DNA from: an uncultured Clostridia bacterium
Lineage (GTDB): Bacteria; Bacillota; Clostridia; Christensenellales; Borkfalkiaceae
Length of the DNA: 50,119 nucleotides
Direction of reading: 5' to 3'
Assembly (NCBI GenBank): GCA_947053545.1
Contig: CAMRSY010000010.1
Coordinates: forward strand, 1 to 50,119
Under the pieces are notes generated by a model. That model was not told the origin of the DNA, searched no databases, and saw only the letters and a program-made list of their open reading frames with translations. Both the position numbers and the translations under genes were made by a program. Of the stretch, positions 1 through 28,098 are shown in pieces; within the stretch, counting starts at the first letter, position 1; the number at the start of each line of letters is the position of its first letter.

Positions 1-55
1 AAGTCCTCGCCGTCGTACTCGTCCGCGTCTGTCGCCGTCGTTATTACTATGTGTC
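1..55. repeat. Exact 55-bp direct repeat, copy 1 (other copy 2446-2500)
   Basis: Bases 1-55 are identical to 2446-2500 and then diverge on the right. The left limit of copy 1 is outside the window. Both lie in the same reading frame at the start of a YDG repeat (product TDADEYDGED). Such identity inside otherwise diverged repeats points to recent recombination or gene conversion between domains. Confidence 0.9.
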
Positions 56-3000
56 TGCGGCTTATTGTAAGCGTGGCGTCTTCGCTGAATGTGAAATTAT
101 AATTGGTAAGTAAGCGCCTACCGCCGTTTACCATCATATTGTCTACGTCGGCTATAATTACGTAGGTTCCTGCGTTTAACGTCGTACTGCCGTCAAACGT
201 GTTGCCGTCAGCCGCATAAAGCACGCGGAAATTTAGCACCTCGCCGTTTACAAGTTTGCTTTCCAGCACAAAATTATTTACGTTTACGTCTTCGCCGTAT
301 ACTTTTTGCATGTCGGCTATTTCAACGTTTACGGACAGGGCTTCTACGGTAAGCGTACCTTCGGTTACGATTATTTCGTAGTTTACCGTAACATTTTTAT
401 CCCCTTCCGTTACAGTCAGCGCCATCGAATTGGGTTTGCTTTCCGCGTCGGTTACCGAAGCCTGGCTGACAACGGACAAAGTATGACCCGCAACGAGTTC
501 GTCGGCGTCGTAAGTAAATCCTGCGGTAAGCGCTGAACCGTTGTACCTGCGCGTTGCGCTATCGGTGGCAACGTTTACCGTTCTTTTTAAAATTATAAGT
601 TTTGCGTCGTTTTTCGCGTAAGTTATAACGTAATTGCCCGCAGCTTCGCCTCTGCCGTCTACCACAGCGTATTCGGCGGTGTTTTCCATAGACGAACTTA
701 CGTTGCCGTCGGCAGTTGCAAATTCGCCGACGAGCACAAGCTTATAACCTTCCGGCAGGGTTGCTGACAAGTTGCCGTCTATAACGTATTCTACCTCTTC
801 GGAAGGCGCGTCGGGCGAAAGCGCAAGCTTTTGTCCGTCGTAAACTTTTGTAACCGTTTTGCGGACAACGGAAATATTTACGCCCTCTATGGTAAGTTTA
901 CCGTACGGCGTACCGGTAATTACGTTGTAGTTTGCCGTATTAACCGCTGTGTTACCTTCGTATACTGTTATTTGTCCGCAGACGATGTCGTATTCGCCCG
1001 CAAATTCGGGCAGAACCGCTTCACCGTCTTTTTCAAACGCAGGAATAACTGTAAGCGTTTCGCCGCTTAACAGCCCTTCAGCCCTGTAATATCCCTTATC
1101 GCCATCGGGATAAGTTAAAGCGTCGCCGTAGCCCACGGTTAAATCGTTCATATAAACGGTTAAATCTTTGGCTACGATTTCAAACGAAACGTCTTCGCAG
1201 GAAACGATATTGTAATTGGCTATGTCGCCGCCTTCTACCGTGCAGGCGCCTAAATTTATTGCCGCGGTGTATTCGCCTACGTCTTTAGGTTTTAAAAGGT
1301 TGTAAGTTACCGCAACTTTAAGCTGTTCGCCGTCCGTCGACCAGCTTGTTTTTACGTTGCGAATTGCTCCGTCGTAATCTTCGCCGTAAACAAACGCGGA
1401 TTTGCCGCCGGCGTTTAAAGTAACCGAGATATTGCGTTTAACAACTTTAAATTCGCACGACGCAGGCACAAATTCGGGCGCGTAATTGTCGGCGCCGTCA
1501 GCGATAACCAAGCCGCGGTTATTTTTTATTATGCTGTCTTCCCAGTTTACGCTTGCGGTATAAACGCCAATTCCGCCAACCGCTCTGTCTGTGAAAATGG
1601 CTATTTCTGCGGTTTCGCCGTTAACGAGCGTAACTGCGCCCTGCGTAAGCTTTTGCACGTATGAACCGTCGCCGTATTCAACCTGTACGCCTTCGTTTAA
1701 AGTAACGGTTACAGGTGCGCGGGCGATTACTATTTTACCGTACGTGTACGTAATTGAATAATTGTGCGTAAGGTCGGTTGCGCCGAGGACAACGCCGTAC
1801 TTCGCAGTATTGTTTACACCCTCAGTTGCGTTGGTATAAGTAAACTTTTTAACAAGTTTTAGTTCGTGACCCAGACCGGTTAACAGCCCTTCGCCTATGC
1901 TGTCGGGCGTATCGTTGCCTTGCGGCTGACCGCTGTAAACGGACGAAACTCCGCCCGTAGTTATTGCCAGCGGTCGCTTATTGATAATAATCGTGCCGTA
2001 ATTGTACGAAATATTATAATTTTCCGAAACGTCAAATCCGTCGGCGTCGCAAATTTTTACGGTAAATTTGTTTTTAACGCCCGACGTATAATCGGTCTGC
2101 GATATTATAACGCCGTCGGCAAGTATTTCGTGCCCTTCGACAAGCCTGAGCGGATTGTAGCTTAGCGTGCCGTTGGAATGGGGAGCGCCGTCGTACGTTT
2201 CGGTTATATCCGCGGTTTTTACTGTGATAGCGCGTTTCGTAACGGTTAAAGTGCCGTAAACGTAACCGTTGTCTTCGATTACATAGTTTTCGGGCGCGGC
2301 ATACGTACAGATATTATCCTCACTGCCTATTTCCATGCGTTTCGTATACGTTAGTACCGTTAGTTCGTCGCCGTTTATTAAACCTGCCGCTCCCTGCTTT
2401 TCGCCGTCTTTTATCCATTCGGTCGTATAGTCTTTATAATTATAAAAGTCCTCGCCGTCGTACTCGTCCGCGTCTGTCGCCGTCGTTATTACTATGTGTC
2501 GGGGCGTAACTTTAAGTTCGGCGTCGATATTGAAATCGAATACGTAGTTTTCGGCTTTTCCTCTGCCGCCCTCTATTGCCGAAGACTTGTTTGCGTATAT
2601 TATGCCGTAAGTACCTACCGGCAATATAAAGAATTCTCCGTCGGTTACGGGTTTTACCGTTAATCCGCCCTGCTTATACTCTACTCCGAAAGAGAGCGTT
2701 TCGCCGCTTACGAGGGGAACGTCGGTTTTAAACAGAACAGCCGGCTGTTCGCCGAACACGGACGAATTGTTTTGTATAGTTACGTATACGCCCTTTTTGC
2801 TTACGGAAAGTAAACCGAATTTTTCGGTTATGCGGTAGTTTGAAGAAACGTCGTTTCCGTCGCCGTCGGTTATAGTATATTTCAATATGTTGGGACGGCT
2901 GCCCGCGTCGGTCAGCCCCGCGGTTTCGGTTACGGTAAACGTATCGGTATCGGCGATTGCATCCGAGCCCGTTACCGCCCCCGCATACTTTAACGTGTAT

Positions 3001-6000
3001 CCCGCAGTAAGCTCGGCACCGTCGTATTCCTTGCTCTTTGTTCCGGTTACAATTTCTATACGGCGCTGAGTAACTTTCAGTTTGCCGTATGTAACGCCGT
3101 ATGAAACGACGTAGTTATCGGTGGGAGCGCCGTTTTCGTCGACGACTTTAAAAGTAGTTTTATTATCCACTCCGCCCGCGGACGTAACGTAGACCACTTC
3201 GGAAAGTTGTTCCGCAACAATTTTGTAACCTTCGGCAAGAGTGCCCGAATACGAATAATCTTCGCACGTGAGCGGAGATCCGTCATACTCTTTTTCTGCG
3301 CTGCCGGTTGTTATTACGATTACGTTGCCCTTTATTTCCAAAACGCCGTCTTTGCGCGTAACGTCGTAGTCGCCGGTAGCACTTTCGCCTTCGGCGTTAA
3401 CAATTTCGAAACTTACGAAAATAATGTTGTATTTGCCCGCGTTTACGGGTTTTTCAACAGCGTTGCCGTATGCGTCGGTGTAGGACACTTCGGTAATTTT
3501 CAGCTCGTCGCCTTCGACAAGAGCGTCCGATTTGTCGGCGTCGTAGTTACCGAAAGCCTGCGCATAGTCGACCTCTGTTCCGAAAGGAACAAGTAAATTT
3601 TTAACGTATACCGTAACGGGCTTCGCTTTGATTGTGAGCTTGGGCGCCGCGTTTGTATATTTTATCGAATAGTTGGCGATGTCTCCGCCGTCAATCGAAG
3701 CTTCCGCAATATTCACCGCATACTCGCCTTTATGCACGGGCGGTTTGCCGTTTTCGCCGGCTAATGAGAACGTAAGCTGCAACTGTTGCCCTTCCGGCAT
3801 TGTTTCCGCAACGCCGAAAGTTATTTCGGGCAGTTTTTCGCCGTACTCGCACTCGGCGTCGTGCACGGTTACCGTAAGCTGCATAGGCACTATGGAAAAT
3901 TCTACGGGAGCGCAGTTAAAGCCTGCCCTGAGTTTATAGTTGCCTATGCCGCCCTCCGTCGGGTTGCCGTCGGCATCTGTAACGGTGCAGTTCTGCAAAT
4001 CGAGCGAGGCGATATAATTACCCACGTTTTCGGGTATGAATTTCCCGCTTCCGCCGGCGGTTAACGCGCGGAAATGCGCAAGCAGTTTAGCAGTCTGTTC
4101 GGGTTTCACCGCGTAACTCAACGCTATATTTATCTGCTGTCCGCCTAAAACGCCGGTTACGTCGGCAGCGCACAGTTGCGAATTGTAATCTTCGCCGTAG
4201 GCAAACGAAACTCTGCCCGATGCATTTAAAACAATTTCAATTTCGCGCTGCAAAATTACAAGCTCGGGGCTGTTGTCGGCAACCGTTACGGCATAGTTTT
4301 CAATTCTGCCGTTACCGCCCTGTATTTCCGCCGTAGCCGTAATTGCGTACGTACCCGCCGCTTCGGGCTGCGCCGTTTTGTCGCCTGTTGCTTTATTTAC
4401 GTAAATTAAGTTGAGTTTAAGAATATCGCCGTAGGGCAATACCGAACAAATTTCGCCGCCGGAGGTTACCGTATAAGCAATTTCCGGCAATTCTTCGCCG
4501 TATACGCATTCGCCGCTGCCCAGCGTTACCGTAACAGGCATTGCCTTTATATGAAGATTGCCCTCGAAAATATAATTTACGTTATAGTTAGAATAGCGCC
4601 TGTTGCCGCCCACTATTTCGCAATTATTTTCGTCTACGCCTATTTGGTATAAACCTGCGTTACGGGGTGCGGACGACCATACGCCGTCAAGCCCGAAAAT
4701 AAACGCGGGAACTAATTTTTCGTTATTGGGAAGCGTATACGAAGCGCCGTTAGAGGTTATATCGAAATTAAGCGCAGGCAACTTTTCGCCGTAAACGCTT
4801 GCACCGCCGTAAACGGTTACGTTTATGTACTTTCTGAATACGGTTAAAAGTCCGTTTTCGCCCGTAATTTCGTAATTGGGGTGAACGGTATTTAAATCGA
4901 TAGCCGCGCCGTCGTAAACTACTGTGTACTCGCCTGCGTTGACGGGACTGCACGAATTGCCGTTTGCGTCCTCGAAATGGTGAGAAACGGCAAGATTGTC
5001 ACCGTAAGGAAGCGTGTCGTACTCTACGCCGTCCGACGTTACGAAATATGGAATTTCGGGCAATTTTTCGCCGTATGTGTAAGAAACCTCGTCGGAAAAC
5101 GCTATATGCAATCTGCGTTTGGTAATTTCAAGCGTGCCGTGACCGCAGGTTATAATATAATTGGTTAATTTATTGCCTGCGGCGCTCTCCTGTCCGCCTT
5201 CGTAAACTCCGTCCTCGTACGAAATTACCGTAAACTGTATTGCCACAACCGAATATTCGCCAACGTTTACCGGCGTAATATATCCGTTTGTATTTTCTTG
5301 TCCGACGGCGGTGAAAGCTATATCGACTATCAACGTTTCGCCGTTTGCCAACAGCTCGTTTTCCGAGCCGTCAGTTTGATGCGCCGAGCCTATTTCAGGC
5401 AGCACCGTTTCGAAAGTGCCGTCGGGGTTTGCCACGCAGTATTCGCCGTACTGCGCAGTTATGTCGTCTAAGGTGATTTCAACCGTCTTTTTATTTATTG
5501 TCAGCGTTGCGTAATCATATGTAAACGAATAGTTGCGCGCGCCGTCTTCGCCGCCGTCTATTTTTACGATACCATGACGAATGCCGTATTCGCCGGCGTT
5601 ATGAGGTTTAACGTTTAAACCGTTTTTAACATAAGCGTTTTCGAACGTAAGAATTTCGCCGTACGGCAATTCACCTTCGGAAAACGAGCCGTCTGACACG
5701 TCTGAAACGTCAACCGAAAGGTCAAACTCTTCGTTGCCTGCCGTGCCGCTGCCGTATTCAAACTGCCTGTCGATAAATGTTACGCGTACGTTTCTGGGCG
5801 CAACCGTTACGTAACCCACCTGCACGTCGGTTACGTTGTAATTGGTTGAAAGCGGCGTTACGCCGTCTAAAGTGTAGACAACGCTGTTTTCTTCGTCCAG
5901 CGAAATTATATAATCCCCGCAGTTCCAAGCGCCATCATTTTCTATTATAACGGCAACCTCAAGCACTTCGCCGTTAACCAATGAGGCGGAATTTATGACG

Positions 6001-9000
6001 TCGTAATTGTTTTTACCCGCAGCGTAAACGGGAGCTATGCCGTAATAAACGTCGGGCAGGCTGTTTAAAGTTATATCTATATCCGCTTTCGCTATGTTAA
6101 GTTCGCCGTCGGAAACGGTGATAAAATAGTTGCCCGTCAGACTTTCAAGCAATATTTTACCGCCGTTTATGTAAACGTTTACTACCGTGATTCCGTATAC
6201 TCCCGCATTTTTAGGTGTAACAGCGGTTTTTCCGTCGTCGCCTGAAACGTAGTAAATAAAGTCGGCGTTAAACGTATCGCCGTACGGAAGAACGCTTATC
6301 TGAGCGCCGCCGGAGGTAAGTTTGCTTTCGGGCTGAGGAACTTGTTCGCCGTACGTACAGTTTAAAAGCCGCGAAATTTCAACTTTTAGCTGCCGCTGGG
6401 TAATAGTAAGCTCGCCCGCTTCGTAACTTATGCGGTAATTATCTTTGCTTGCGATTCCGTCGCCGTCATAAACGGTAAAGCCTGCGCCCGCAATAACGTA
6501 ATCGCCCACCGATTTGGGGGTTGTATCGACAAGTTCGCCGTCCGCACTCAACTGATATTTTATGTCTACCTTAAGCTGCTCGTTAAAAGCAAGCGGCGTT
6601 GACTTATATAAATTGTAATTGTTTTTGCCGTCGGGATAGGCAAACGTACCGTACTCGCCTATCTTAAATTCGCCGTACTGCATTTCATAGCTGTTAAGAG
6701 CAATTTTAACGTCTTTAGGAACTATTGTAAGTTTGCCCTGCCACGTTGCGGCCGTAGCGAACGAGTAGTTTTGCATTCCCGACTTAATTTCGTTTCCTTC
6801 AGCGTCATATACAGTAGAATTAAACCATTTAATTGCGTATTCGCCAACGTTTTTAGGTTCTGCAGGTTTACCGTCTTTAAGATACTCTACAGCAATTTTA
6901 AACTGCTCGCCGTAAGGAACGCCTTCTACTTTACTTTCGCCGTCGGCGTATTCAACGCGCTTGTAGTTTCCTATTTCGTCAGGGTAACTTACGGTTACTC
7001 CGAATTCGCCGTACTGTACGCCCTGCAAATCCAAAACATAAATATATATCAGTCGGCGGGATATTTTCAAATTTTCCGCGTCTTCGCAGATGAAAATGTA
7101 ATTGTCGGTGCCGTTTTCTATTTCCGTTACGCCGTCGCTTTCGTATATTTTGGATCGATTTATATTTAACGAAGCCGAATAATCGTAAATATACCTGTCG
7201 TTGTAAGAGGAATAGTTTGCATTTTTAGGCGTGCCTGCCTCGCCGTCGATAAAATATTCGACAGCAACCTCAAGTTTTTCGCCGTAGGCAAGGCTTGAAG
7301 CGCTTGCATAGTTGCCAGCGCCCGCCGCGTATGTAAACGTTTCGCCGTATAACACGGGGGCTATTTCGCTAAGAACAATCTGCACCGTTTTGGGTTTGAC
7401 TGTAAGCTTGCCGTCGGTTATTTCCAAAATGAAATTTCCCGAAACGTAGTTAGATTCGCCTATAGCTATATCAGCCCCGTTTAAGGTTGCCGATTTTACG
7501 GTTACGCCGTATTCGCCCGCATTTTTGGGGATTATTTCGGTTTTTTCGGGGTCGCTTAACGCATAGCGCTTTAACACCGCCGATATTTCGCCGTCAGTTA
7601 CCGCATATTCATCGCCGTTTTCGTCGTAAATCCGGAAAGAATTTTCCGCAAGTTTATCGCCGTATAAACACTCGGCACCGCCGTCGATTACCAGATTTAA
7701 TTTTTTAGGTTTGATTGTAAGCTTGCCGCTAATCCAGGTAATATCGTAATTATTCTTGTTTTTATTACCTGTAACAACGTCCCAGTTTTGTACAGTTATT
7801 TCGTAGTAGCCCGCGTCTTTTATTATGTCGGGGGATTTTCCGTTATACAGGAAAGACGCGCTTAAGTTATCGCCGTAAGGCAATCCGTACACCCCGTCGC
7901 CGATTATTCCGCCTTCAATATTTGCAAATAATGGCTTTGGACATGTTACTTTTTCGCCGTAGGTAAGGTTATAATCGTTAATTGTAACCGTAAGCGGGCG
8001 AGGCGTAATTGTCAAACGGCCGAAATCGGAAGAAAAATCATAGTTGTCGGCGCCGTTTTCTATTAAAACGCCCTGCTCGTCGTAGACGAAGTATTCCACG
8101 GCTTCCAAATCGTATGTTCCTACATTTACAGGATTAACGGCAACGCCGTTTTGCAAATAATTTACCTTAATTTCGATTTTTTCGCCGTAATAGAATTTGC
8201 TGCCGTCTTGATTTTCATTAACGGCAAACCAATTTGAAATTTCGCTGCCGTAAACTTTAGTGAAATCCGAAATGATAAGTTTAACAGCCCTTGTCTGAAT
8301 AATAAGCCCGGGCGCATATTTAATGCTAAAAGTATAGTTGCTGGTTGCATTTGTCAGCAAAACTCCGTCGACGTACACGCCGGTGATTCTCAATTCGTAA
8401 GTGCCGACGTTTTTGGGTGTTTCGTACTCGTCGGTATGAAGATTAATATAACCGTATTCGAAAGTAACCTTTTCGTTATAGGGAAATGAATATTCTACGT
8501 CCTCTTTTCCCTTTTCATATATTATGTACTGAGGTTCGGGCAACTCGTCGCCGTAATAAATATCAAACCAGATTTTATCCTGATATTCTTCCGTAAACGT
8601 TACGGTAAGGGCGCGCCTTGCAATTATAAGCGAGCCTGCTTCGAAAGTAATTTTATAGTTGCTTAACAACCCGGCAGATAAATCTTTATTGGTTACTACA
8701 CAATTTTCTTCGTCCACGACGATTTGATACGTACCTGCGTTTTTAGGGCTTGCTATTGCGTTGCCGTACTTATCCGTATATTTTACGGCAACGTCAACCG
8801 TTTCTTCGTATTTCAGCCCGGAAATAATGGTTTTATCCTGCGGGTAAGTCCAACTGTCGCCGTAAGATATTCCCGTTATTTCAGGTAACGTTATTTTAAG
8901 CGGCGCCGCCGTGACGGTAAGAACGCCGCCGTGATAGACGCGTGAAGCAGTATAATTATCCAAAGCGGAAACGCTTCCGTTTATCATTACCGAATCGGCT

Positions 9001-12656: not shown

Positions 12657-12692
12657 AAAATACCAGTCTTTACAGCCCTGTTTTTTTACTTT

Positions 12693-19133: not shown

Positions 19134-19135
19134 TG

Positions 19136-20271
19136 TGTCACCCAAAAGAAGAGAGAGTAATTTTTGAAATGATTTATACGTTTTGTTCTATCAGCCGTAT
19201 GGTCTCTTTACACAGTTCAAGCTTGTTTTCGCCGAACAGTTCGTCCAGACAATCGCATACGTTGTCAGCCATCTGCTTGACGTATACAGGATTCTTGCTT
19301 TCCAGCTTGCGGAATATCTTCCTCGCCAGTATGTCGTCCAATGCCTCTACCTCTGTTCCTCCGCACGCTACCAGTACCGGCACGTAACATTTTATCTGCT
19401 TCATTATTCGGTTTCCGAACGTTATATGAAACGTTTTTATCATATATTCGTCCAGCTTCTTCAGCCTTCTTAAATTCCTGTCGCTTATCGCGTATTCCCG
19501 CTGCGCCCTGTCCATCAACTCCTGCAGGTGCGTTGCCGATATCTTCCTCTTCCTGCCCTCCGCCTCGAACGGCGTTGCCTTCTTGTCTAAATTTATTACC
19601 ATCGCTCGGTCGTATACCTTATCCGATATACTGAACGTACTGTCGTCGTTGTTCGCCGTTCCTATAAACCACATGTTTGTCGGCAACTTCATCTTTCCGT
19701 TGCTCTGCAACAGTTTCGGGTCGTCTTCCCATCTGTCCGCTACTACGTCTAAATTCCGTCCGTCCGCGTTCGGTATTTCCAATAGCGATAAAAACTCCGC
19801 AAAGTAATACTCTACCCTCGCTATGTTCATTTCGTCGAGAACCGTTATGTATATCTCTTCGTTGTTGTTCGCCTCGTACATCTTATACAACAGCGTCGTT
19901 TCGTTGAACCGTCTCGTAAACTCGTTGTAATATCCCAGCAGATCAGTCCTCTCTTTCCACATCGGCTGTATCGGCACAACAACCGTCTTGTTGTCCAGAT
20001 ATTCCCCGAACGCGTACGCAAGCGACGTTTTTCCCGTTCCCGACATTCCCTGCAGAATTATTAGCTTGGTTACCGACAGACCGCCGATAAACCGCCTTAT
20101 ATCCTCGATATCGTAATACAGATGCAGTTCCCCTGCAGAATAGTTCCTGAAATCTTCGCACAGCTCTTTCAGTCCTATCCTGTCGTCATACTCCGGCTTT
20201 ACGTAGTTTTCGTATTCCCTGTCTATCTGCGTTAACATGTAAAATCGCGATCCTTCTTCGTTTTCGCCGGC
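19136..20271. repeat. Segmental duplication copy A (1136 bp, identical to 22590-23725)
   Basis: By direct reading, 19136-20271 matches 22590-23725 at a constant offset of 3454 bp with no difference seen. Sequence diverges immediately at both ends (19135/22589 and 20272/23726). The unit covers the whole AAA+ domain (last 365 codons), the stop codon and the short gap up to the next start codon. Codon use in the unit leans to AAG lysine and AGG/AGA/CGA arginine, unlike the AAA and CGC preference of flanking genes. Confidence 0.96.
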
Positions 20272-20682
20272 CGTGTTATTTTCACGCTTTTCCGCTGTTG
20301 CGGACGCGTGCGATTTGTACGCGAAAGAGCCGGCGTTGGGTACCGCAGCTTTCGATTCACCCGGATTGTAATTATCTATATTCTGTAATTTGGGGCGTTC
20401 CCTGTCCATCTTTTTGAAATCCACGCCGAAATAGTCGGGTCTGACGTTTAATTTCGAATTGCAAACTGTTGCCAGAATTAAAAACAACAGCAACAAAGGA
20501 AGAAGAATTATGAATGCTAAAATAAGATATTTAAGGTTGGAACTCATTAAGGGCAATCTGTCGCCCGAAGCGATAAAGGCTATAACCGCCGCGATTAGCA
20601 ACACGAAAAGACCGATAATAAGCAATATCGGCATAAGCAGTTTTATACTGTTTTTTCCGCTGTTTTCGTCCCTTTTTTTCAT
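19174..20682 (-). CDS. Membrane-anchored McrB-type AAA+ ATPase, copy 2 (two N-terminal TM segments)
   Basis: 502 aa. Residues 13-38 and 50-73 are two membrane segments unique to this copy, followed by a polar linker to about 137. From residue 138 the protein is identical to the AAA protein at 22628-24106. Walker A is GMSGTGKTS (212-220), Walker B is ITVLDE (D283, E284) followed by MNIARVEYYF, and a sensor motif GTANNDDST precedes the arginine in YDRA. The DEMN-x-AR-VEYYF and GTxNxDxST motifs are those of the McrB branch of AAA+ proteins rather than MoxR or classic AAA. ATP or GTP hydrolysis is expected; McrB itself uses GTP. The start has a good site (AAAGGA, 5 nt before the ATG). It begins 34 bp after the DUF2357-like gene. 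A membrane-bound motor assembling with its near-identical partner is inferred, not shown. Confidence 0.9.
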   Translation of the reverse strand: MKKRDENSGKNSIKLLMPILLIIGLFVLLIAAVIAFIASGDRLPLMSSNLKYLILAFIILLPLLLLFLILATVCNSKLNVRPDYFGVDFKKMDRERPKLQNIDNYNPGESKAAVPNAGSFAYKSHASATAEKRENNTAGENEEGSRFYMLTQIDREYENYVKPEYDDRIGLKELCEDFRNYSAGELHLYYDIEDIRRFIGGLSVTKLIILQGMSGTGKTSLAYAFGEYLDNKTVVVPIQPMWKERTDLLGYYNEFTRRFNETTLLYKMYEANNNEEIYITVLDEMNIARVEYYFAEFLSLLEIPNADGRNLDVVADRWEDDPKLLQSNGKMKLPTNMWFIGTANNDDSTFSISDKVYDRAMVINLDKKATPFEAEGRKRKISATHLQELMDRAQREYAISDRNLRRLKKLDEYMIKTFHITFGNRIMKQIKCYVPVLVACGGTEVEALDDILARKIFRKLESKNPVYVKQMADNVCDCLDELFGENKLELCKETIRLIEQNV

Positions 20683-20716
20683 AGCATTCCTTTAAACGTT
20701 TATGCGTTTAACGCGC

Positions 20717-22588
20717 TCAATTACCGTCGCGTTTTTTCTTTTCTTCCTTAGTCCAGAGAATGGTTTTACGAATTTCTTTTTTTGTGAACTCCCACTGCTT
20801 TTTAAAAAATTTCTGAAAAGCTTCGTATTCCTTTTCCAGTTCGGTAAATCTCTCGCGCGAGGTATATTCGGTTGACGGAGTAAGTTTTCCCTGCTGAATG
20901 CGTATTCCGTCAAGTTCGCCGCGCGCGAGCGCCGCCTCTTCTTTAAGTTCGGCAAACTGCTTTTCGTACTGCATTTTAAGCGCCTCGGATTTTGTCTGTT
21001 CGCTTTTCACAGTATCGGCGCAACGCTGCTCTACGTCCTTTAGTTTTGCGTCCAATGCGTCTTCAAGGCGCTTTTTCTCGTTATCGTAGTCGGTCATTTT
21101 AAACTGCATATCCGCAATGCGTCTGTCGCACTCGTCCAATGCCGACTGATACTTTGCGTTGGCGGCGACTATTTCGCCCGTAAGTTCGGCAACTTTATTT
21201 TCGTATCCGTCTACTGTATACGTAAATTTTTCGGTAAACTCCGCATTAAGCGCCGCTATTTCGCCGTCTTTATCGTCCTTTAATTTTGCGATAGCCGACG
21301 TATGCTCGTTTTTAAGCGCGGCGATATCTTCGATGTATTTTTGCTTTAATTCGTTTATTTCCTCTTCCTTCTGTTCTACTGTCCGCCTTAGTTCGTCCAC
21401 ACGCCTGTTAAGTTCGTCTTTTTCTGAATTTAATCCTTCGATTTCCTTTAAAAGCTGTTCGAGCTGCAACCGCACATTGGCAAGCTCCTCACTGTCTTTT
21501 TCGAGGTGACGGTTGCGCCTTTCCAAAACCAGCATATACTCTTCCAGACTTTTTCCCGACTCGGAAGCGCGCTTTTTAAGCCTGTTTAAGTTTTGTATAA
21601 GCTTTTGCTCGGCTTCTTCCTTACGTCTGCGCTCCTCTTCGCGGTAGTTGAGTTCTAAAGTTTCTTCTAATTTGTTTCCCGCTTTGTATGCCACGAAAGA
21701 CATTAAATTTGCAGCCTCGGCTATTTCGTCGCTCAAAAATTCGGAATAGGGCGCAAAATCGAGCGTTACCTGCTCTGACGAAAAACCGTCTCCTTTATAC
21801 GACGCGATAAAGTCGTACAGCGCCAGCGCGTTTTTAAAGTTGTTGTTCATCTTTAAAACGTTGGTTTTAACTATAGGCGGTTTAATCATCGGCGTTTTTG
21901 CAACCTGCTGCATTAGGTCGGTATTTAAAAGCGCGTTTATTATTTCGCGGCAGTCGCTTATGCGGCGCACACGCTTTTCACACTCGCCGTCGGGTATGGG
22001 ATAAGGATTGTCCGACCGCTCCTCCAGCACGCGCATCTCTATTTTAAGCGTGCGTTTTTTTGCAACCACTTTTTTATCTATACTCATATCGCCGACGTAC
22101 GAACGCCGCAGATTGTCTATTTTTTCCAGCCTGTACTCGATAAAATTTTTAAGGTAGCACAGCATCATATATAAAAATCTGTTTTCGTACACCGCGAAAT
22201 CGGAAAGTTTTTCCACCATATAAAGCTGGTCGGGCACTATTGTAGCGTCCTCGTCTTCGGGTATATGGGTTATCATATCGCTGTGCTTTGCAAGGTGCAC
22301 AACCGTGTCTTTGGATATTTTTCGTATCTTTTCTATAGGAACAACTTCGCCGTTGGTACGTATAAACTGCCGCTCCTCCGCAACCGCCTGCTCGACGAAT
22401 TTGAGTCCGTCCTCGATTGCCTTAATCCAGTCTTCCTCTACCGTGACAATGTATTTAGTTGATTGCAGTTTGTCCCGCTCGGTATCGGTTTCCGCAACCG
22501 CGCGCTTTTCCTTTTCGCATACGTTGGATTTTACGGTTTCCTTGCGGTAATCTTTAAACGCGCGATAATAAAAATCTAAATTTTCCAT
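20717..22588 (-). CDS. DUF2357-like protein with long C-terminal coiled coil
   Basis: 623 aa, no membrane segment. Residues 45-300 resemble DUF2357 proteins, which often sit beside McrB-type ATPases: a YENRF motif at 134-138 and a PPIVKTNVL segment at 237-245 followed by NFKNALALYDF. In family members known to me this region is commonly followed by a PD-(D/E)XK nuclease. Here residues about 306-560 form instead an uninterrupted, highly charged coiled coil with heptad leucines, and the tail (575-623) is basic and amphipathic. I see no nuclease motif. It lies between the two AAA genes and starts right after copy B of the duplication, whose last bases supply the likely ribosome site (GGGTGA). 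A McrC-like role as partner or regulator of the AAA ring, with the coil as reach or tether, is inference. The DUF2357 assignment is from motif memory only. Confidence 0.85.
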   Translation of the reverse strand: MENLDFYYRAFKDYRKETVKSNVCEKEKRAVAETDTERDKLQSTKYIVTVEEDWIKAIEDGLKFVEQAVAEERQFIRTNGEVVPIEKIRKISKDTVVHLAKHSDMITHIPEDEDATIVPDQLYMVEKLSDFAVYENRFLYMMLCYLKNFIEYRLEKIDNLRRSYVGDMSIDKKVVAKKRTLKIEMRVLEERSDNPYPIPDGECEKRVRRISDCREIINALLNTDLMQQVAKTPMIKPPIVKTNVLKMNNNFKNALALYDFIASYKGDGFSSEQVTLDFAPYSEFLSDEIAEAANLMSFVAYKAGNKLEETLELNYREEERRRKEEAEQKLIQNLNRLKKRASESGKSLEEYMLVLERRNRHLEKDSEELANVRLQLEQLLKEIEGLNSEKDELNRRVDELRRTVEQKEEEINELKQKYIEDIAALKNEHTSAIAKLKDDKDGEIAALNAEFTEKFTYTVDGYENKVAELTGEIVAANAKYQSALDECDRRIADMQFKMTDYDNEKKRLEDALDAKLKDVEQRCADTVKSEQTKSEALKMQYEKQFAELKEEAALARGELDGIRIQQGKLTPSTEYTSRERFTELEKEYEAFQKFFKKQWEFTKKEIRKTILWTKEEKKKRDGN

Positions 22589-22589
22589 C

Positions 22590-23725
22590 TGTCACCCAAA
22601 AGAAGAGAGAGTAATTTTTGAAATGATTTATACGTTTTGTTCTATCAGCCGTATGGTCTCTTTACACAGTTCAAGCTTGTTTTCGCCGAACAGTTCGTCC
22701 AGACAATCGCATACGTTGTCAGCCATCTGCTTGACGTATACAGGATTCTTGCTTTCCAGCTTGCGGAATATCTTCCTCGCCAGTATGTCGTCCAATGCCT
22801 CTACCTCTGTTCCTCCGCACGCTACCAGTACCGGCACGTAACATTTTATCTGCTTCATTATTCGGTTTCCGAACGTTATATGAAACGTTTTTATCATATA
22901 TTCGTCCAGCTTCTTCAGCCTTCTTAAATTCCTGTCGCTTATCGCGTATTCCCGCTGCGCCCTGTCCATCAACTCCTGCAGGTGCGTTGCCGATATCTTC
23001 CTCTTCCTGCCCTCCGCCTCGAACGGCGTTGCCTTCTTGTCTAAATTTATTACCATCGCTCGGTCGTATACCTTATCCGATATACTGAACGTACTGTCGT
23101 CGTTGTTCGCCGTTCCTATAAACCACATGTTTGTCGGCAACTTCATCTTTCCGTTGCTCTGCAACAGTTTCGGGTCGTCTTCCCATCTGTCCGCTACTAC
23201 GTCTAAATTCCGTCCGTCCGCGTTCGGTATTTCCAATAGCGATAAAAACTCCGCAAAGTAATACTCTACCCTCGCTATGTTCATTTCGTCGAGAACCGTT
23301 ATGTATATCTCTTCGTTGTTGTTCGCCTCGTACATCTTATACAACAGCGTCGTTTCGTTGAACCGTCTCGTAAACTCGTTGTAATATCCCAGCAGATCAG
23401 TCCTCTCTTTCCACATCGGCTGTATCGGCACAACAACCGTCTTGTTGTCCAGATATTCCCCGAACGCGTACGCAAGCGACGTTTTTCCCGTTCCCGACAT
23501 TCCCTGCAGAATTATTAGCTTGGTTACCGACAGACCGCCGATAAACCGCCTTATATCCTCGATATCGTAATACAGATGCAGTTCCCCTGCAGAATAGTTC
23601 CTGAAATCTTCGCACAGCTCTTTCAGTCCTATCCTGTCGTCATACTCCGGCTTTACGTAGTTTTCGTATTCCCTGTCTATCTGCGTTAACATGTAAAATC
23701 GCGATCCTTCTTCGTTTTCGCCGGC
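22590..23725. repeat. Segmental duplication copy B (1136 bp, identical to 19136-20271)
   Basis: Partner of the segment at 19136-20271, in the same orientation. It ends on the left two bases before the ATG codon of the DUF2357-like gene and on the right inside the AAA gene at codon 128, exactly where the two ATPases stop resembling each other. No terminal inverted repeats, target-site duplication or transposase are visible at the borders. Confidence 0.96.
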
Positions 23726-24106
23726 TTGCCCGCCATTGCCTGCGTGCGGGCCGTCAGACGCCGAAGCCGCCTGCTGCGCCATCGAACGAACGGGGGCGGG
23801 ATAACCGGAAGAATTGGCAAGGTTGCGCTTTACGTAGTTTAAATCACCGCCTATTCTTTCGAAATGTTTATCCATTTTTTTGGATACGCTTTCGATTACG
23901 GCTTCCTGAGCCGCCTCCTCTTTAATACGTTTTTTCTGCCTGTGCTGTTCGGCGCGTTCCTGCTCGCCGAGAATAACCCTTACGGCAAGCACAACTATTA
24001 GCACCAGAATAAGCGAAATATAAATTATTAAAGCCACTTTGCTTGTAAGCGCGGACATAAGCTGTTTGAAGAATTCGTCCGCCGCAAGAAAATTGCTATA
24101 CGTCAT
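22628..24106 (-). CDS. Membrane-anchored McrB-type AAA+ ATPase, copy 1 (single N-terminal TM)
   Basis: 492 aa. A single hydrophobic segment (about 23-46) is followed by a short charged coiled coil (48-95) and a Gly/Ala-rich linker. Residues 128-492 are identical to the other AAA protein in the operon. Walker A 202-210 (GMSGTGKTS), Walker B D273-E274, sensor GTANNDD at 331-337 and a candidate arginine finger at R349 are all present, so the site looks active. The ATG overlaps the TGA of the upstream gene (ATGA) and has a strong GGGGAGG site, so translational coupling with the GH3-like protein is likely. Because its N-terminal anchor differs from that of the other copy while the motor is identical, the two may place the same motor in different membrane assemblies or mix in one ring (inference). 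Confidence 0.9.
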   Translation of the reverse strand: MTYSNFLAADEFFKQLMSALTSKVALIIYISLILVLIVVLAVRVILGEQERAEQHRQKKRIKEEAAQEAVIESVSKKMDKHFERIGGDLNYVKRNLANSSGYPAPVRSMAQQAASASDGPHAGNGGQAGENEEGSRFYMLTQIDREYENYVKPEYDDRIGLKELCEDFRNYSAGELHLYYDIEDIRRFIGGLSVTKLIILQGMSGTGKTSLAYAFGEYLDNKTVVVPIQPMWKERTDLLGYYNEFTRRFNETTLLYKMYEANNNEEIYITVLDEMNIARVEYYFAEFLSLLEIPNADGRNLDVVADRWEDDPKLLQSNGKMKLPTNMWFIGTANNDDSTFSISDKVYDRAMVINLDKKATPFEAEGRKRKISATHLQELMDRAQREYAISDRNLRRLKKLDEYMIKTFHITFGNRIMKQIKCYVPVLVACGGTEVEALDDILARKIFRKLESKNPVYVKQMADNVCDCLDELFGENKLELCKETIRLIEQNV

Positions 24107-27100
24107 AATTCCTCCCCGCCGTTTTCATTCTGACCGCCTACCGCTGTTTCGGGCACGCCTGAAACTTGCTGTTCCGGAACGCCGGCATTACCGTTTTCCG
24201 CTTGCCCGCTTAAACTTTCCGCCGTTTGTTCGTTCCCATTATCAGCGCGCTGCCCGAAATCGCCGTCTTGCGTGCGTTTTTCTTCCTCGCTTATATTTTC
24301 GTCCGCCGCCGTAACAGTTTCGCCCGCGGACCCCCCGCTTTCAACCGTAGACGGCTGCGTTTCAGCAATGCGCGTATATTTGGTAAGCGAACGCTTTATT
24401 TTTGTAAGCTCTTCGTCGGCAAACAGTTTTTCAACGATTGCAAATACCGCTTTGTCGCCGCCGTCCTGCCTGAACATACGCGTGTTTTTAAGTATGTACG
24501 ACAGTTTTGCTAAAAACATATTTGTAACCGCTTCGGGCTCGTCGGCGCCGCAAGCAAGCATTACCGACGTAAAACTTTCGCACTGAATTATATTTTTGTT
24601 TCCTATTGCAAAGCGTTCGTTTGCGCCCAACGTTTCCGTAAGCGCGTCAACCTTTTTCCAGATTCGTTCGGAAACAAAGTGCTCTTCCTTAGCCTCCGAA
24701 AGCATTAAAAGAAAATCTTCGTGCGAAATAATTTTCGGCTCCGCCTCTTCGCCGTCCTGAACCGTGGTTTCCGAAAGCATAACCTCGGCAACCAGCGCCG
24801 CGTTAAGAATTTCCGCGGGCAGCATATCGATAAAACCGTCCTTAGGTACCAGCACGTAAGTAAGATTTTCGGGCAGACTGAACGACGTTTCCTCGTTAAA
24901 GTTTATTACAAACTGCTCCGTAGGGTGATTGGCAAATTCCAGAAAATTGAAAAAGTAGCTGCCCAGATTGTTTATGTTAACGTTTTCGATTACGGTAACC
25001 CGCTCTTGCTCGCGCGATTTGTGAGCGCCGTAAACCGCGTTAGAAAATGCAGAAAGGACATATTTTCCGTCGCCCTCTTCCCACAGCAAATCGGAAAGAG
25101 CGCTCCATTCGTCTTCTGCCCTTACAGGCGTTTCGTTACCGTAATATTCGTTTAAAATTTTAACGAATTTCGGCAGCAATTCGGCATTTTTCGAAGTCAA
25201 AAATACAAGCTTGCAAGACGCGATTGCAGCGACAAGCGCGCGGGCTGACGTAATTTCGAGATTTATCCCCCTGTGCATTGCGAAATTGCGAAGATTTCTG
25301 CACAGCTCGCCGAAAGACGCTTTATCCGCAAGCGCCATATCCGCAACCTCGGTTTCGTTGAAATTTACCTCGTATGTGGCTGCAAGCGCCTGCGCTTCCT
25401 GCTCGGCCTCGGTCTGCTCTTCGATTTTTTCCGTTTGACCGGCCGCCTCTTCCTCGACAGGCTGTTTGTATTTTACTTTTGCTATTTCGGTAAATTCACC
25501 CACGTTGTCAAGCATATCTGTCAACACGACATTGGGATGCAGATATTTCTGACCTTTTCGGCGCGTGCTTACAATACCCGCATAAGCGATAACCAAACCG
25601 TTTACCACAAGCGCGACGACGGCGATTATTACGTAAAACAACAAATCTTTGCGGCTTATTGCGTTTCCCACCGCAAAAAATATGAGTATCGCGTCGACAT
25701 ACAGGGCAAAAATTACGGCAAGCGTTATTTTAAGAGCAAACGGCAACTGTCTGCGCGCCGCCTTCACGTCCGGCGGAAGATTGCTTTCGCTGAAATCGAT
25801 TTTAGACAGGTCGGACGAGGTTTCGGCAACCGTGTTTTCGAACTTGTACTTTTCGTCGTAGTCTTTAAGCATCATTATGCCCGAAAGTTTATCGCTTTCT
25901 TCACTGTCGCCTACCGATACGGTGTAAAGTCCGCCCTCGACAAAATACCCCTTTACCTGCGAATACTGGCTGAACGTCGTTTCGTCGAAAGGAATTTTTA
26001 CGTTTACCGCATCGCCCTTACTTACGAAAACCTTGGCAAAGCCCTTCATGGTTTTGTTGATGAAAGAAGATTTTGTGTTCTTTTTTCTTACGAACATACG
26101 GGGAACGGCATAGCCGTCGTACGCGCCGGTATTTCGCACAGTGAAACTTACTCCGCTTTCGTTAACTTTAAGGTTGGAATACTCGAACGACGTGTAAGAA
26201 AGACCGAACCCGAACGGATATTTTTCAATAAATCCGCCCTCGCCCGTTATCCCCGCGGCGGAGGCAAGTTTTCCCGAAGGCGACGCTTCGCCGGTTAAAA
26301 TATCAAGCGCGGCAACCGTACCGCCCTGACCTGCGGCATACGTTAAAAGCACGGCGTCGCATTTGTCGGCAAAACCCATATCGATATTTTTTCCGCACGA
26401 AACCACCGCCGCTATTTTTGCGTGCCTGCCGGAAATCGCGTTAAGCAGTTCCATCTGCTCGGCAGGCAGCCTGTCGGCGCCGACAGGAGCGGAAAGGTAT
26501 AAAATTATGCAGTCGGCGTTATTGCTCAACAAAAGAGCGTGGTCTATTAAATCGCTTCTGCCGCGCTCGCCTTTGGCGTAGCCGAGAGCAAACCCAACGG
26601 TATCGAGTTCGTAATCGTTTACAGCGTCGAAAGGCAGTTTTTCCGACGTAGCCGACGTAGGATAATATTTGCGCTGATAGCTTAAGTCCTTGGCGTATTC
26701 GCCCATAACGGCTATTTTCATATTGCGCGAGACAGGCAGTAAACCGCCCTCGTTTTTAAGCAATACCGCCGACTGCCTTGCCGCTTCGGCCGCAAGCTCG
26801 TTATGGTTTATTTCGTCGAAATTTGCCGTTTCGTCCTTTCTTAGCGAGGCAAAACCTTCAGGCGGATTGTCCTTCGCGCTCTGCATTCCGAAAATTACGT
26901 CTATTATTTTATCGCACGCCCTGTCCAAAATTTCGCCGTCGAAAATTTTGAAATTGCGCACCAGACGCGCAAAATTGCTTTCCGTCATCTTGTCGTTAAC
27001 AAAACGCGCGTGCGCCTGCTTATACCCTTCCGTAAGCGTTTTAAGCTTGTTTGCAAGCGCGTCGGTAATATCGTCGGTGAGAAACACGAACGAAGCGCCG

Positions 27101-27699
27101 CAGTACAAAAAGTCGAGTGCTTCCTCTACCGACGAAGCGGTTCCGAATACAAGGTCGCGGTATTTAAATCTTTTAACCGCCGTTTCCGCTTCGGCAACGT
27201 CGGAAAAAATTACCGACCCGGGCGCCGCGGTATTTAAAACGTAATCTCTGATTTCCCGCCTTACTATACTTTCGTCGAAATCGTCCGAACCGTCGTCCTC
27301 GAAATTTACATTAGCTCCGCCGCGCCTCAATCCGCCCGTCTTTTCGGCAAGAAAACGGGCCAGCACGCAGGGGTCGGTAGTTATCGATCCGCTTGCTTTT
27401 CCGTTTGTACAGTTAAAGTACGCAAAGCTGTTTTTTGCGTACGCCTCTTCGCCCACAGCCGCATAAACCCTTTCTATGAGGTCACCGTTCCAGGAACAGG
27501 CAAGAGCCGCGTCGCAGGGAAAATGCGTTACGCGCACCCCCTTACAGCTTTCGTCGAAGGGTTGGTTTTTAATTTCGAAAACCGGAAATTCATAGCTGCC
27601 TACGGACGAGCTTTTGAAAAATTCGGTCGAGGTTATAAGCCTGACCTTTTGCTCCGTAGACATTTTCACTATAAACCGTTCGTATTTTAATGCAGCCAT
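24103..27699 (-). CDS. Degenerate GH3-like / TM hairpin / inactive McrB-like AAA fusion protein
   Basis: 1198 aa from the ATG at 27699, chosen because GGAG lies 5 nt upstream; an upstream ATG at 27726 has no such site. Residues 10-180 retain traces of a GH3 beta-glucosidase N-domain (FPCDAALACSWN, then VGEEAYAK), but most of the barrel is missing or altered and the usual nucleophile motif SDW reads SDV (166-168). Residues 295-500 are a recognisable GH3 C-domain (AAEAARQSAVLLKNEGGLLP; YPFGFGLSYTSFEY), followed by a fibronectin-III-like domain to about 600. Two membrane segments lie at 652-676 and 686-712. Residues 793-1100 align by eye with the operon's AAA proteins, but the Walker A position reads LTSKNAELL and Walker B VTVIENVN, so it should not hydrolyse nucleotide. 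The tail is acidic and disordered. There is no signal peptide, so both large domains are predicted to be cytoplasmic. It is the first gene of the operon. Confidence 0.85.
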   Translation of the reverse strand: MAALKYERFIVKMSTEQKVRLITSTEFFKSSSVGSYEFPVFEIKNQPFDESCKGVRVTHFPCDAALACSWNGDLIERVYAAVGEEAYAKNSFAYFNCTNGKASGSITTDPCVLARFLAEKTGGLRRGGANVNFEDDGSDDFDESIVRREIRDYVLNTAAPGSVIFSDVAEAETAVKRFKYRDLVFGTASSVEEALDFLYCGASFVFLTDDITDALANKLKTLTEGYKQAHARFVNDKMTESNFARLVRNFKIFDGEILDRACDKIIDVIFGMQSAKDNPPEGFASLRKDETANFDEINHNELAAEAARQSAVLLKNEGGLLPVSRNMKIAVMGEYAKDLSYQRKYYPTSATSEKLPFDAVNDYELDTVGFALGYAKGERGRSDLIDHALLLSNNADCIILYLSAPVGADRLPAEQMELLNAISGRHAKIAAVVSCGKNIDMGFADKCDAVLLTYAAGQGGTVAALDILTGEASPSGKLASAAGITGEGGFIEKYPFGFGLSYTSFEYSNLKVNESGVSFTVRNTGAYDGYAVPRMFVRKKNTKSSFINKTMKGFAKVFVSKGDAVNVKIPFDETTFSQYSQVKGYFVEGGLYTVSVGDSEESDKLSGIMMLKDYDEKYKFENTVAETSSDLSKIDFSESNLPPDVKAARRQLPFALKITLAVIFALYVDAILIFFAVGNAISRKDLLFYVIIAVVALVVNGLVIAYAGIVSTRRKGQKYLHPNVVLTDMLDNVGEFTEIAKVKYKQPVEEEAAGQTEKIEEQTEAEQEAQALAATYEVNFNETEVADMALADKASFGELCRNLRNFAMHRGINLEITSARALVAAIASCKLVFLTSKNAELLPKFVKILNEYYGNETPVRAEDEWSALSDLLWEEGDGKYVLSAFSNAVYGAHKSREQERVTVIENVNINNLGSYFFNFLEFANHPTEQFVINFNEETSFSLPENLTYVLVPKDGFIDMLPAEILNAALVAEVMLSETTVQDGEEAEPKIISHEDFLLMLSEAKEEHFVSERIWKKVDALTETLGANERFAIGNKNIIQCESFTSVMLACGADEPEAVTNMFLAKLSYILKNTRMFRQDGGDKAVFAIVEKLFADEELTKIKRSLTKYTRIAETQPSTVESGGSAGETVTAADENISEEEKRTQDGDFGQRADNGNEQTAESLSGQAENGNAGVPEQQVSGVPETAVGGQNENGGEEL

Positions 27700-27776
27700 T
27701 ATATCTCCGATGCCTTGCCTGCGCATATGTGTACGCGCACGTAAAAGGCGGAATTTTAATTATAATTACACATTGC

Positions 27777-27806
27777 ATTATACACCCGTGCCCGCGTGTG
27801 TGTCAA
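27777..27806 (-). promoter_or_regulatory. Sigma-A promoter of the GH3/AAA/giant-protein operon
   Basis: On the minus strand a perfect TTGACA (27801-27806) and perfect TATAAT (27777-27782) are separated by 18 bp. The upstream 50 bp are runs of A and T, as in UP elements. Transcription should start near 27770, about 70 nt before the ATG at 27699. I found no comparable promoter in the short gaps of the operon downstream. Confidence 0.85.
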
Positions 27807-28098
27807 TATATATAATGCATATTTTTTTACAAACAAAAAAATGTATTTTTTAGCTAAATTTACCTTATGCGGCGTGCGGCGTTTAAAGGCCTTTAAAGCG
27901 GAACAAAGAAAAGGCGCGTGCCGCACGGCACGCGCCTTTTCAATAAGAGAGAATATGAAAAAAGTTAGAGTGTGTAAATTTATGCCTGACGGATTTTCCT
28001 CCGCTTTGCAAGATGATTATATCCGCCGAATGTGTAATCTGTATGAATTTAAAATGATTTTACGGTTAACTTTTAACAAACAAAAGTTTAAATTAACT
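27807..28098. other. Intergenic region between the operon promoter and the FAD-dehydrogenase gene
   Basis: Apart from the promoter and terminator listed separately, this stretch holds A/T tracts (27807-27860), a perfect 16-bp palindrome TTTAAAGGCCTTTAAA at 27882-27897 (possible operator, about 75 bp upstream of the -35), and an AT-rich tail to the next stop codon. A small plus-strand frame here has no ribosome site worth trusting. Confidence 0.5.
27909..27940 (-). terminator. Intrinsic terminator after the FAD-dehydrogenase gene
   Basis: Perfect stem AAGGCGCGTGCC / GGCACGCGCCTT with a 4-base loop, followed on the minus strand by TTTTCTTTG. It lies about 160 bp downstream of the stop codon at 28099 and isolates that transcript from the operon promoter. 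Confidence 0.8.

Follow-up and report, generated by a model that had tools for sequence, protein, structure and literature searches.

McrB-type AAA proteins with an NxD motif and a DUF2357 coiled-coil partner are known from McrBC and CoCoNuT Type IV restriction, in which a nuclease (PD-(D/E)xK, HEPN or other) is part of McrC or of a gene next to it in the account consulted here (PMC11090510). A membrane type of the same kind, CoCoPALM, was named in 2024 in a single passage of that paper, which presents it as McrB GTPases of the NxD kind that carry an FtsB-like membrane/coil region as a fusion and are associated with signal peptidase family proteins, with coiled coils on the McrB as well as the McrC homologue; the passage names the type and does not describe it, and defers a fuller treatment (Bell et al., 2024, PMC11090510). 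Among papers found to use the word CoCoPALM, that one and its preprint were, judging by their titles, the sole relevant ones. On the side of giant surface proteins, MBG_2 repeats are known from stalks of variable length, such as that of CdrA, in the part of the literature covered by PMC8201768.

Here we analysed a window of 50,119 nucleotides (contig CAMRSY010000010.1 of an uncultured Clostridia bacterium) that holds an operon with two McrB-type genes, a DUF2357 gene and two giant repeat proteins. An earlier note on this DNA had called the operon a candidate new system. Among the matches listed in a search of mainly non-subscription literature, no title or abstract opening described a twin-AAA/giant operon. 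The word new needs qualifying because the parent type, CoCoPALM, already has its name in the passage cited above (PMC11090510).

The operon consists of six ORFs on the same strand, in the order gene 1 (X), AAA1, COIL, AAA2, Y1 and Y2 (Table 1). Gene 1 and AAA1 overlap by 4 bp and the subsequent gaps are 39, 34, 28 and 36 bp, in agreement with the earlier claim of six co-directional genes separated by at most about 40 bp. Across the loci compared, the median intergenic gaps are –1 to 24 bp. The promoter, previously called near-consensus, in fact matches the consensus perfectly and is the only perfect one among three promoter-like sites in the 801 bases scanned, where shuffled sequences gave a mean of 1.8. 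Between positions 12000 and 27800 there was no excess of promoter-like sites (18 vs 18.7 in shuffles) or of terminator-like sites (23 vs 24.2). The neighbours of the operon in the window include uvrA/uvrB on the upstream side, two FAD proteins, a ferritin-like protein and a two-component pair.

Table 1. Features of the operon and its upstream region, in window coordinates.
Feature	Position	Strand	Description
Terminator-like hairpin	27908..27941	-	15 pairs, T-rich tail; upstream of operon
Sigma-70 type promoter	27777..27806	-	TTGACA-18-TATAAT, 12/12 matches; heads operon
Gene 1 (X)	24103..27726	-	1207 aa; degenerate GH3-like region, Fn3-like domain, TM segments, AAA-like domain
Glyco_hydro_3_C domain of gene 1	26194..26766	-	residues 321-511, Pfam
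Dead AAA-like domain of gene 1	24373..25359	-	residues 790-1118; 72 bits to AAA body profile
AAA1	22628..24106	-	492 aa; one TM anchor (residues 24-42) and McrB-type AAA body
Repeat copy 1	22590..23725	-	exact 1136 bp; AAA1 body to just before COIL start
COIL	20717..22588	-	623 aa; DUF2357 (McrC N-terminal-like), long coiled coil, conserved C-terminal tail
DUF2357 (PF09823) match	22106..22429	-	28.8 bits, cut-off 23.3, direct family search
AAA2	19174..20682	-	502 aa; two TM (residues 19-37, 53-71) and body identical to that of AAA1
Repeat copy 2	19136..20271	-	exact 1136 bp; AAA2 body to just before next gene's ATG
Y1	12693..19145	-	2150 aa (ATG five codons in); N-terminally anchored repeat protein
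Y2	3..12656	-	at least 4218 aa, cut by window end; MBG_2 repeats, N-terminal tail, one TM
Y2 conserved N-terminal tail and TM anchor	12525..12656	-	Y-x2-Y-x2-K/R

AAA1 and AAA2 share one McrB-type motor, which each of them carries on a membrane anchor of its own. Both match the Pfam family AAA_5 above its curated cut-off, and for all three distinct AAA sequences that were compared with the PDB, McrB chains were the sole matches at E ≤ 0.001 (best 7.6e-5). In 44 aligned AAA rows the Walker A motif (GMSGTGKTS) is invariant and Walker B (LDE-NIAR) is mostly so, with D273-E274 invariant; the sensor, NND (N334, N335, D336) and Arg-finger positions are invariant as well. The two proteins therefore combine Walker A and B with the NxD/NxxD motif of McrB-like AAA proteins, NxD being defined as in PMC11090510. 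By hydropathy, on which all of our membrane topology calls are based, AAA1 has one TM segment in 39 of 50 rows and two in the other 11, and AAA2 has two in 58 of 62 rows and three in 4. The membrane-anchored McrB-type pair of the earlier note is thus upheld; the exact 1,136-bp direct repeat common to both AAA genes was overlooked there.

The third conserved component, COIL, had been called a DUF2357-like coiled-coil protein, and a direct family search placed its DUF2357 match over the cut-off (Table 1). The domain is unlisted for this protein by a plain Pfam scan at E ≤ 0.05 and by an NCBIfam scan. The same direct search was over the cut-off in 19 of 61 genomes, that of the window included, and in 0 of 14 controls. 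DUF2357 is over the cut-off as well in the COIL proteins of loci L127 and L122. The coiled coil itself is clear, and in a comparison of a COIL profile with the PDB the 60 matches listed, of 93, all fall in the coil half. Hydropathy gave no TM segment in 58 of 60 rows, the window's COIL among them, and no nuclease was detected in the protein. Judged by its domains, COIL appears to resemble McrC.

Like CoCoNuT and McrBC, of which distant examples were seen on plasmids, the operon pairs a McrB-type AAA carrying the NxD motif with a DUF2357 coiled-coil partner. Unlike these systems, in the account that PMC11090510 gives of them, it is membrane-anchored, its partners are extracellular-type proteins, and a restriction-type nuclease was not found: none, HEPN included, was present in the six operon proteins (Pfam on all, NCBIfam on five) or in the 17 window neighbours scanned with Pfam. 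The earlier note had likewise seen no nuclease. We therefore rejected Type IV restriction, for which no nuclease was found in the operon or its 17 neighbours. A looser relation to defence has also to be considered: phage or neighbouring cells would be sensed at the surface by the giants or by gene 1, and the AAA/DUF2357 pair, as a derivative of McrBC or CoCoNuT, would be the effector. The kinship of McrB and DUF2357 with restriction systems speaks for such a defence or antagonism role, as do matches of AAA2 (2.7e-46) and AAA1 (1.5e-44) to the PADLOC candidate PDC-M26A, a candidate whose partners are undefined in the sources, and a distant plasmid relative that has a partner with a nuclease domain. 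Against it stands the lack of any restriction-type nuclease among the operon proteins and neighbours scanned, and we consider it quite unlikely.

Gene 1 was described earlier as an inactive AAA domain fused to a GH3-like region, and this description holds: the protein has a GH3_C domain and, at its C-terminus, an AAA-like domain without Walker A or B. Hydropathy gives two clear TM segments (residues 667-685 and 695-713) and a borderline one (825-843). The GH3 domains detected by Pfam at E ≤ 0.05 are GH3_C and the Fn3-like domain only; the N-terminal catalytic domain was undetected, and gene 1 as an active GH3 enzyme was rejected on this ground. A match to the AAA body occurs in 52 of 55 gene 1 rows and reaches E ≤ 0.001 in 46 of them, or in 41 of 50 after dropping five second fetches (L090–L094, which repeat L037, L033, L035, L042 and L039 and are dropped where stated). 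No Walker A is seen in the alignment of these rows, many of which have a gap at that stretch. The N-terminal part varies. A GH3-like region occupies it in the window and in L043, L050 and L105, a zinc-ribbon-like one, below its cut-off, in L060, and LRR in L084; in L065 and L073 the position of gene 1 is filled by an unrelated gene.

The giants each have one N-terminal TM segment by hydropathy, which bears out the signal anchors proposed for them before. They had also been labelled YDG/MBG. The MBG half of this label stands for Y2, where MBG_2 (PF18676) scores 33.3 bits for a cut-off of 25. At E ≤ 0.05 neither giant has the Pfam YDG family listed, so YDG describes recurring letters only. The N-terminal tail of Y2 is short and predicted to be cytosolic, and its Y-x2-Y-x2-K/R pattern is present in 43 of 48 Y2 rows; of the five rows without it, L044 is not a real Y2. 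Because an LPXTG-type sorting signal ends none of the 71 complete Y1 or Y2 proteins, a sortase-anchored adhesin was rejected. In its long MBG_2 stalk of variable length, Y2 is like the Periscope-type MBG_2 adhesins such as CdrA, as far as PMC8201768 treats them. It differs from CdrA-type adhesins, within the same part of that source, in being held by an N-terminal TM segment with a conserved, predicted cytosolic tail and in its co-occurrence with an AAA match, which is quantified below (PMC8201768).

To examine how the two AAA bodies have evolved, we compared them in 46 loci in which both AAA genes are complete. DNA identity between the twin bodies is at least 99% in 22 of these loci, at least 90% in 26, and 61–83% in the other 20. 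Measured back from the stop codon, the high-identity block is about 1,080–1,200 nt long in 22 of 45 loci; in L033 and L042, differences near the stop brought a simple walk to 0. In 31 of 46 loci an AAA body is nearer to its own twin than to that of any other genome. The N-termini behave in the opposite way, and resemble the same paralogue in another locus in all 91 scorable cases (of 92 sequences). In a tree of the bodies, from which we counted, 28 loci have their twins as sisters; in the other 18 the twins are split, each body grouping with its own paralogue. From the patterns of N-termini and bodies it follows that the duplication is old and that the motor, not the anchors, has been homogenised, a process that ended in 18 loci. 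This is concerted evolution: a single motor is shared by two anchors, and the anchors never mix. Gene conversion is apparently the process that keeps the motors identical in many lineages. Identical motors are not obligatory, because in the 18 split loci the bodies follow the paralogue and not the genome.

The split loci share a further feature. All 18 have an extra gene, E1, upstream (as part of gene 1 in L082 and L084), and 16 of them have E2. Of the 28 sister loci, 23 have 2 kb or more of sequence upstream of gene 1, and a hand tally found E1 in 2 of these 23. Because the loci are related, we do not call this association causal.

Bacterial paralogues kept identical by gene conversion have a familiar example in tufA/tufB. 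AAA1 and AAA2 are like these, except that here homogenisation is limited to the AAA body and lid, and the membrane anchors are kept apart.

Identity over such a length could also arise if there were one real AAA gene and the second copy came from faulty assembly or from independent recent duplications. The repeat is longer than short reads and most loci are from metagenome assemblies. Assembly trouble is also visible at the repeat, since in four distinct loci (L015, L019 = L061, L026 and L066) one AAA gene is followed directly by a giant, with no COIL, and since some short contigs are about as long as the repeat spacing. The 3-kb contig L047, which reads COIL end, AAA, COIL start, is a matching circle, in the assembly graph or in the cell. 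The lone AAA of the COIL-less loci has an AAA1-type N-terminus; a search of the L015 and L019 genomes found no COIL elsewhere, and that of the L026 genome (G116) gave only a weak coil-only match. These loci could reflect collapse of the repeat in assembly or real deletion between repeats, with loss of the 3.4-kb COIL-AAA unit. Several observations argue against a single real gene. The twin copies have scattered differences in L032, L035 and L037, and in 17 of 58 named loci (counted by script; two of the 17 are gene 1 frames) the contig ends within an AAA copy, as it would at a true repeat. In addition, the distinct N-termini follow their paralogue and 18 loci have clearly diverged copies in the same positions. 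We regard one real AAA gene as very improbable, and a pure assembly artefact was rejected on the scattered differences and the paralogue-specific N-termini.

Conservation of the operon was followed in 58 loci from a scan of public genomes together with added regions of relatives. AAA1 is in place in 55 of 62 non-duplicate rows that have COIL and AAA2; in the other seven the sequence begins too late or the frame is masked. Both giants are present in 46 of 46 loci that have AAA1, COIL and AAA2 and at least 3 kb downstream, of which the window is one (44 by table, with the Y2 start of L099 and the Y1 of L117 located afterwards). The earlier note had named AAA/DUF2357 genes that never neighbour giants in related genomes as the result that would speak against its proposal, and on this comparison the link held. 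Its idea of a membrane AAA machine that acts on giants is accordingly sustained in its genetic part, with the four COIL-less loci as the exceptions. In L057, which is irregular, the giant is on the other strand.

Among 301 genomes of the window's family, an AAA match was found in 111 (single-AAA types included) and the Y2 tail in 56. An AAA match is present in 55 of these 56 (Fisher p ~1e-27, a value that is overstated because the genomes are related), and at least 43 of the 56 Y2 genes lie within 12 kb of an AAA gene, among the AAA matches listed for the 301 genomes. In a phylum-wide sample of 398 genomes the Y2 tail occurred in the window's own genome only, from which we conclude that the system is narrow. 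This patchy presence would suit defence. Against a defensive role, the 267 plasmid and 2 phage records compared contain no copy that reaches 60% identity or 80% coverage; for the same reason, prophage or plasmid cargo was rejected.

Most hosts found are Clostridia; the operon also occurs in Anaeroplasmataceae, in Acholeplasmatales and in a MAG filed under Haloplasma. The presence of the operon in the latter three groups raises a different explanation, namely an envelope-architecture or cell-division system in which the giants form a coat or scaffold, perhaps as a wall substitute in wall-less hosts, and the AAA/coil machine times or spaces its assembly. The 56 genomes with Y2 have one Y2 each, as might be expected of such a structure, and in L084 the operon comes after mraZ and rsmH, with the same run of gene lengths in L082. 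However, the division-cluster position is confined to one small lineage, most hosts are Clostridia, and 245 of the 301 family genomes have no Y2. We consider an envelope or division role rather unlikely.

To place the operon among its relatives, we compared it with 32 chosen loci that have one AAA and COIL, some with little flank (L158, L159 and L169). A signal peptidase of the S26 type adjoins the single-AAA/COIL pair in 15 of these loci, as two genes in 8 of the 15. Three of four S26 genes scanned passed TIGR02228, a signal peptidase I model, and all four matched the SipW model below its cut-off. Nearby small proteins, for which no family match was found, resemble by eye what we take to be SipW-dependent TasA-type proteins. 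Type IV pilus genes adjoin the pair in 8 of 32 loci (T2SSE in 8, T2SSF in 7 and prepilin peptidase in 6; for L127 a Pfam scan was also made), and neither signal peptidase nor pilus genes are beside it in 9 of 32. In the twin-AAA rows a signal peptidase was seen in 0 of 67, of which 5 are second fetches and several have little flank.

Those single-AAA loci that adjoin signal peptidase or pilus genes agree with CoCoPALM as far as the type is characterised in its one passage (PMC11090510). Measured against the same passage, the window operon is like CoCoPALM in having an NxD McrB-type AAA with a membrane anchor, a McrC-type DUF2357 coil partner and a link to surface appendages. It is unlike CoCoPALM in having a pair of McrB-type genes rather than one, a dead AAA-like protein as third subunit, two anchored giants, and no signal peptidase in the twin rows (PMC11090510). 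The twin-AAA/giant operon is thus a CoCoPALM variant that fails the signal-peptidase feature of that passage (PMC11090510). Because single-AAA relatives adjoin signal peptidase or pilus genes, the link to appendages has independent support, and the company that these relatives keep is a further point against defence. The earlier note had offered defence or antagonism as its alternative; this has less behind it, because no restriction-type nuclease was seen and no close plasmid or phage copies were found.

With these data we lean, if only just, towards a nuclease-free, membrane-bound relative of McrBC that builds, holds or moves giant surface fibres. Several observations count against this reading: the four COIL-less loci, the 9 single-AAA pairs that adjoin neither signal peptidase nor pilus genes, the 18 loci with split bodies, the unrelated gene at the place of gene 1 in L065 and L073, the Y2 rows that lack the tail pattern, and the failure of the plain Pfam scan to list DUF2357 in the window's COIL. 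From the domain content we propose that the three AAA-type proteins, AAA1, AAA2 and gene 1, would form a mixed ring under the membrane, with gene 1 as a putative regulatory, non-hydrolysing subunit. The DUF2357 domain of COIL would dock on this ring and stimulate hydrolysis, as McrC does for McrB, and the work would reach the fibres either through the coil or through the cytosolic tail that is conserved in Y2. By gene conversion the two motors would remain interchangeable, each on its own distinct anchor. The operon has no signal peptidase gene beside it, and we therefore propose that the fibres remain anchored; together with their TM anchors and the conserved tail, the missing peptidase suggests that they stay coupled to the ring, which may export, tension or retract them. 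Both the function and the complex are predictions from sequence. A more specific and decidedly tentative version is that the operon represents a new class of surface-fibre motor, in which a nucleotide-driven ring at the cytoplasmic membrane, derived from McrBC and assembled from a single motor domain that sits on anchors of two kinds, together with a dead regulatory subunit, pulls on or extends permanently anchored giant fibres from inside.

If there is such a fibre motor, a portable McrB/McrC-type module would have three wirings, of which this operon shows the one to giant fibres; the others are to secreted proteins processed by signal peptidase and to type IV pili, and the module would have left DNA restriction for surface mechanics. 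A McrB/McrC-type pair, known for cutting foreign DNA, appears here to work in the membrane without a nuclease, next to three kinds of surface filament. The twin operon provides a natural experiment, in which two motor domains have been kept identical in many lineages and let go in others. For uncultured gut bacteria and their wall-less relatives, it also offers a testable instance of giant fibres tied to a motor in the membrane.

Among the chosen relatives with a single McrB-type AAA gene and a DUF2357 coiled-coil (COIL) partner, the AAA/DUF2357 pair occurred in several settings. At L118-L126, L161, L162, L165 and L170-L172 the pair is adjoined by one or two S26 signal peptidases. Small secreted proteins, TasA-like as judged by eye, are frequent at loci of this type. 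Near one such locus lie two EAL-domain genes (table), one of which additionally carries GGDEF. In eight loci (L127, L153-L159) the pair is contained in a run of type IV pilus genes, with T2SSE in 8/8, T2SSF in 7/8 and a prepilin peptidase in 6/8. At L128, L129, L163, L164 and L167 the pair stands alone, flanked by apparent housekeeping genes, and no partner gene was visible at these five loci.

Position of features outside the window
Feature	Location	Remarks
Twin system (gene 1, AAA1, COIL, AAA2, giants Y1 and Y2)	L084:6001-19481	downstream of mraZ, rsmH and a 75-aa gene
AAA1-type frame	G524:C33:20606-21922	two in-frame TAG codons; genome of same order
Two EAL-domain genes	L122:14117-17736	near AAA/DUF2357 locus of signal-peptidase type

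The first gene of the L084 twin system carries leucine-rich repeats and, based on gene lengths, L082 resembles this arrangement. At L015, L019 (= L061), L026 and L066, COIL is absent and a giant comes immediately after a single AAA with an AAA1-type N-terminus. The 3-kb contig L047 has the order COIL end, AAA, COIL start. Either the repeat was collapsed in assembly at these loci and L047, or the 3.4-kb COIL-AAA unit was truly excised.

Two extra genes, E1 and E2, lie 5' of gene 1 in L063, L064, L097, L099 and L102-L117. E1 is present at all 18 loci (18 of 46) where the AAA bodies split by paralogue.
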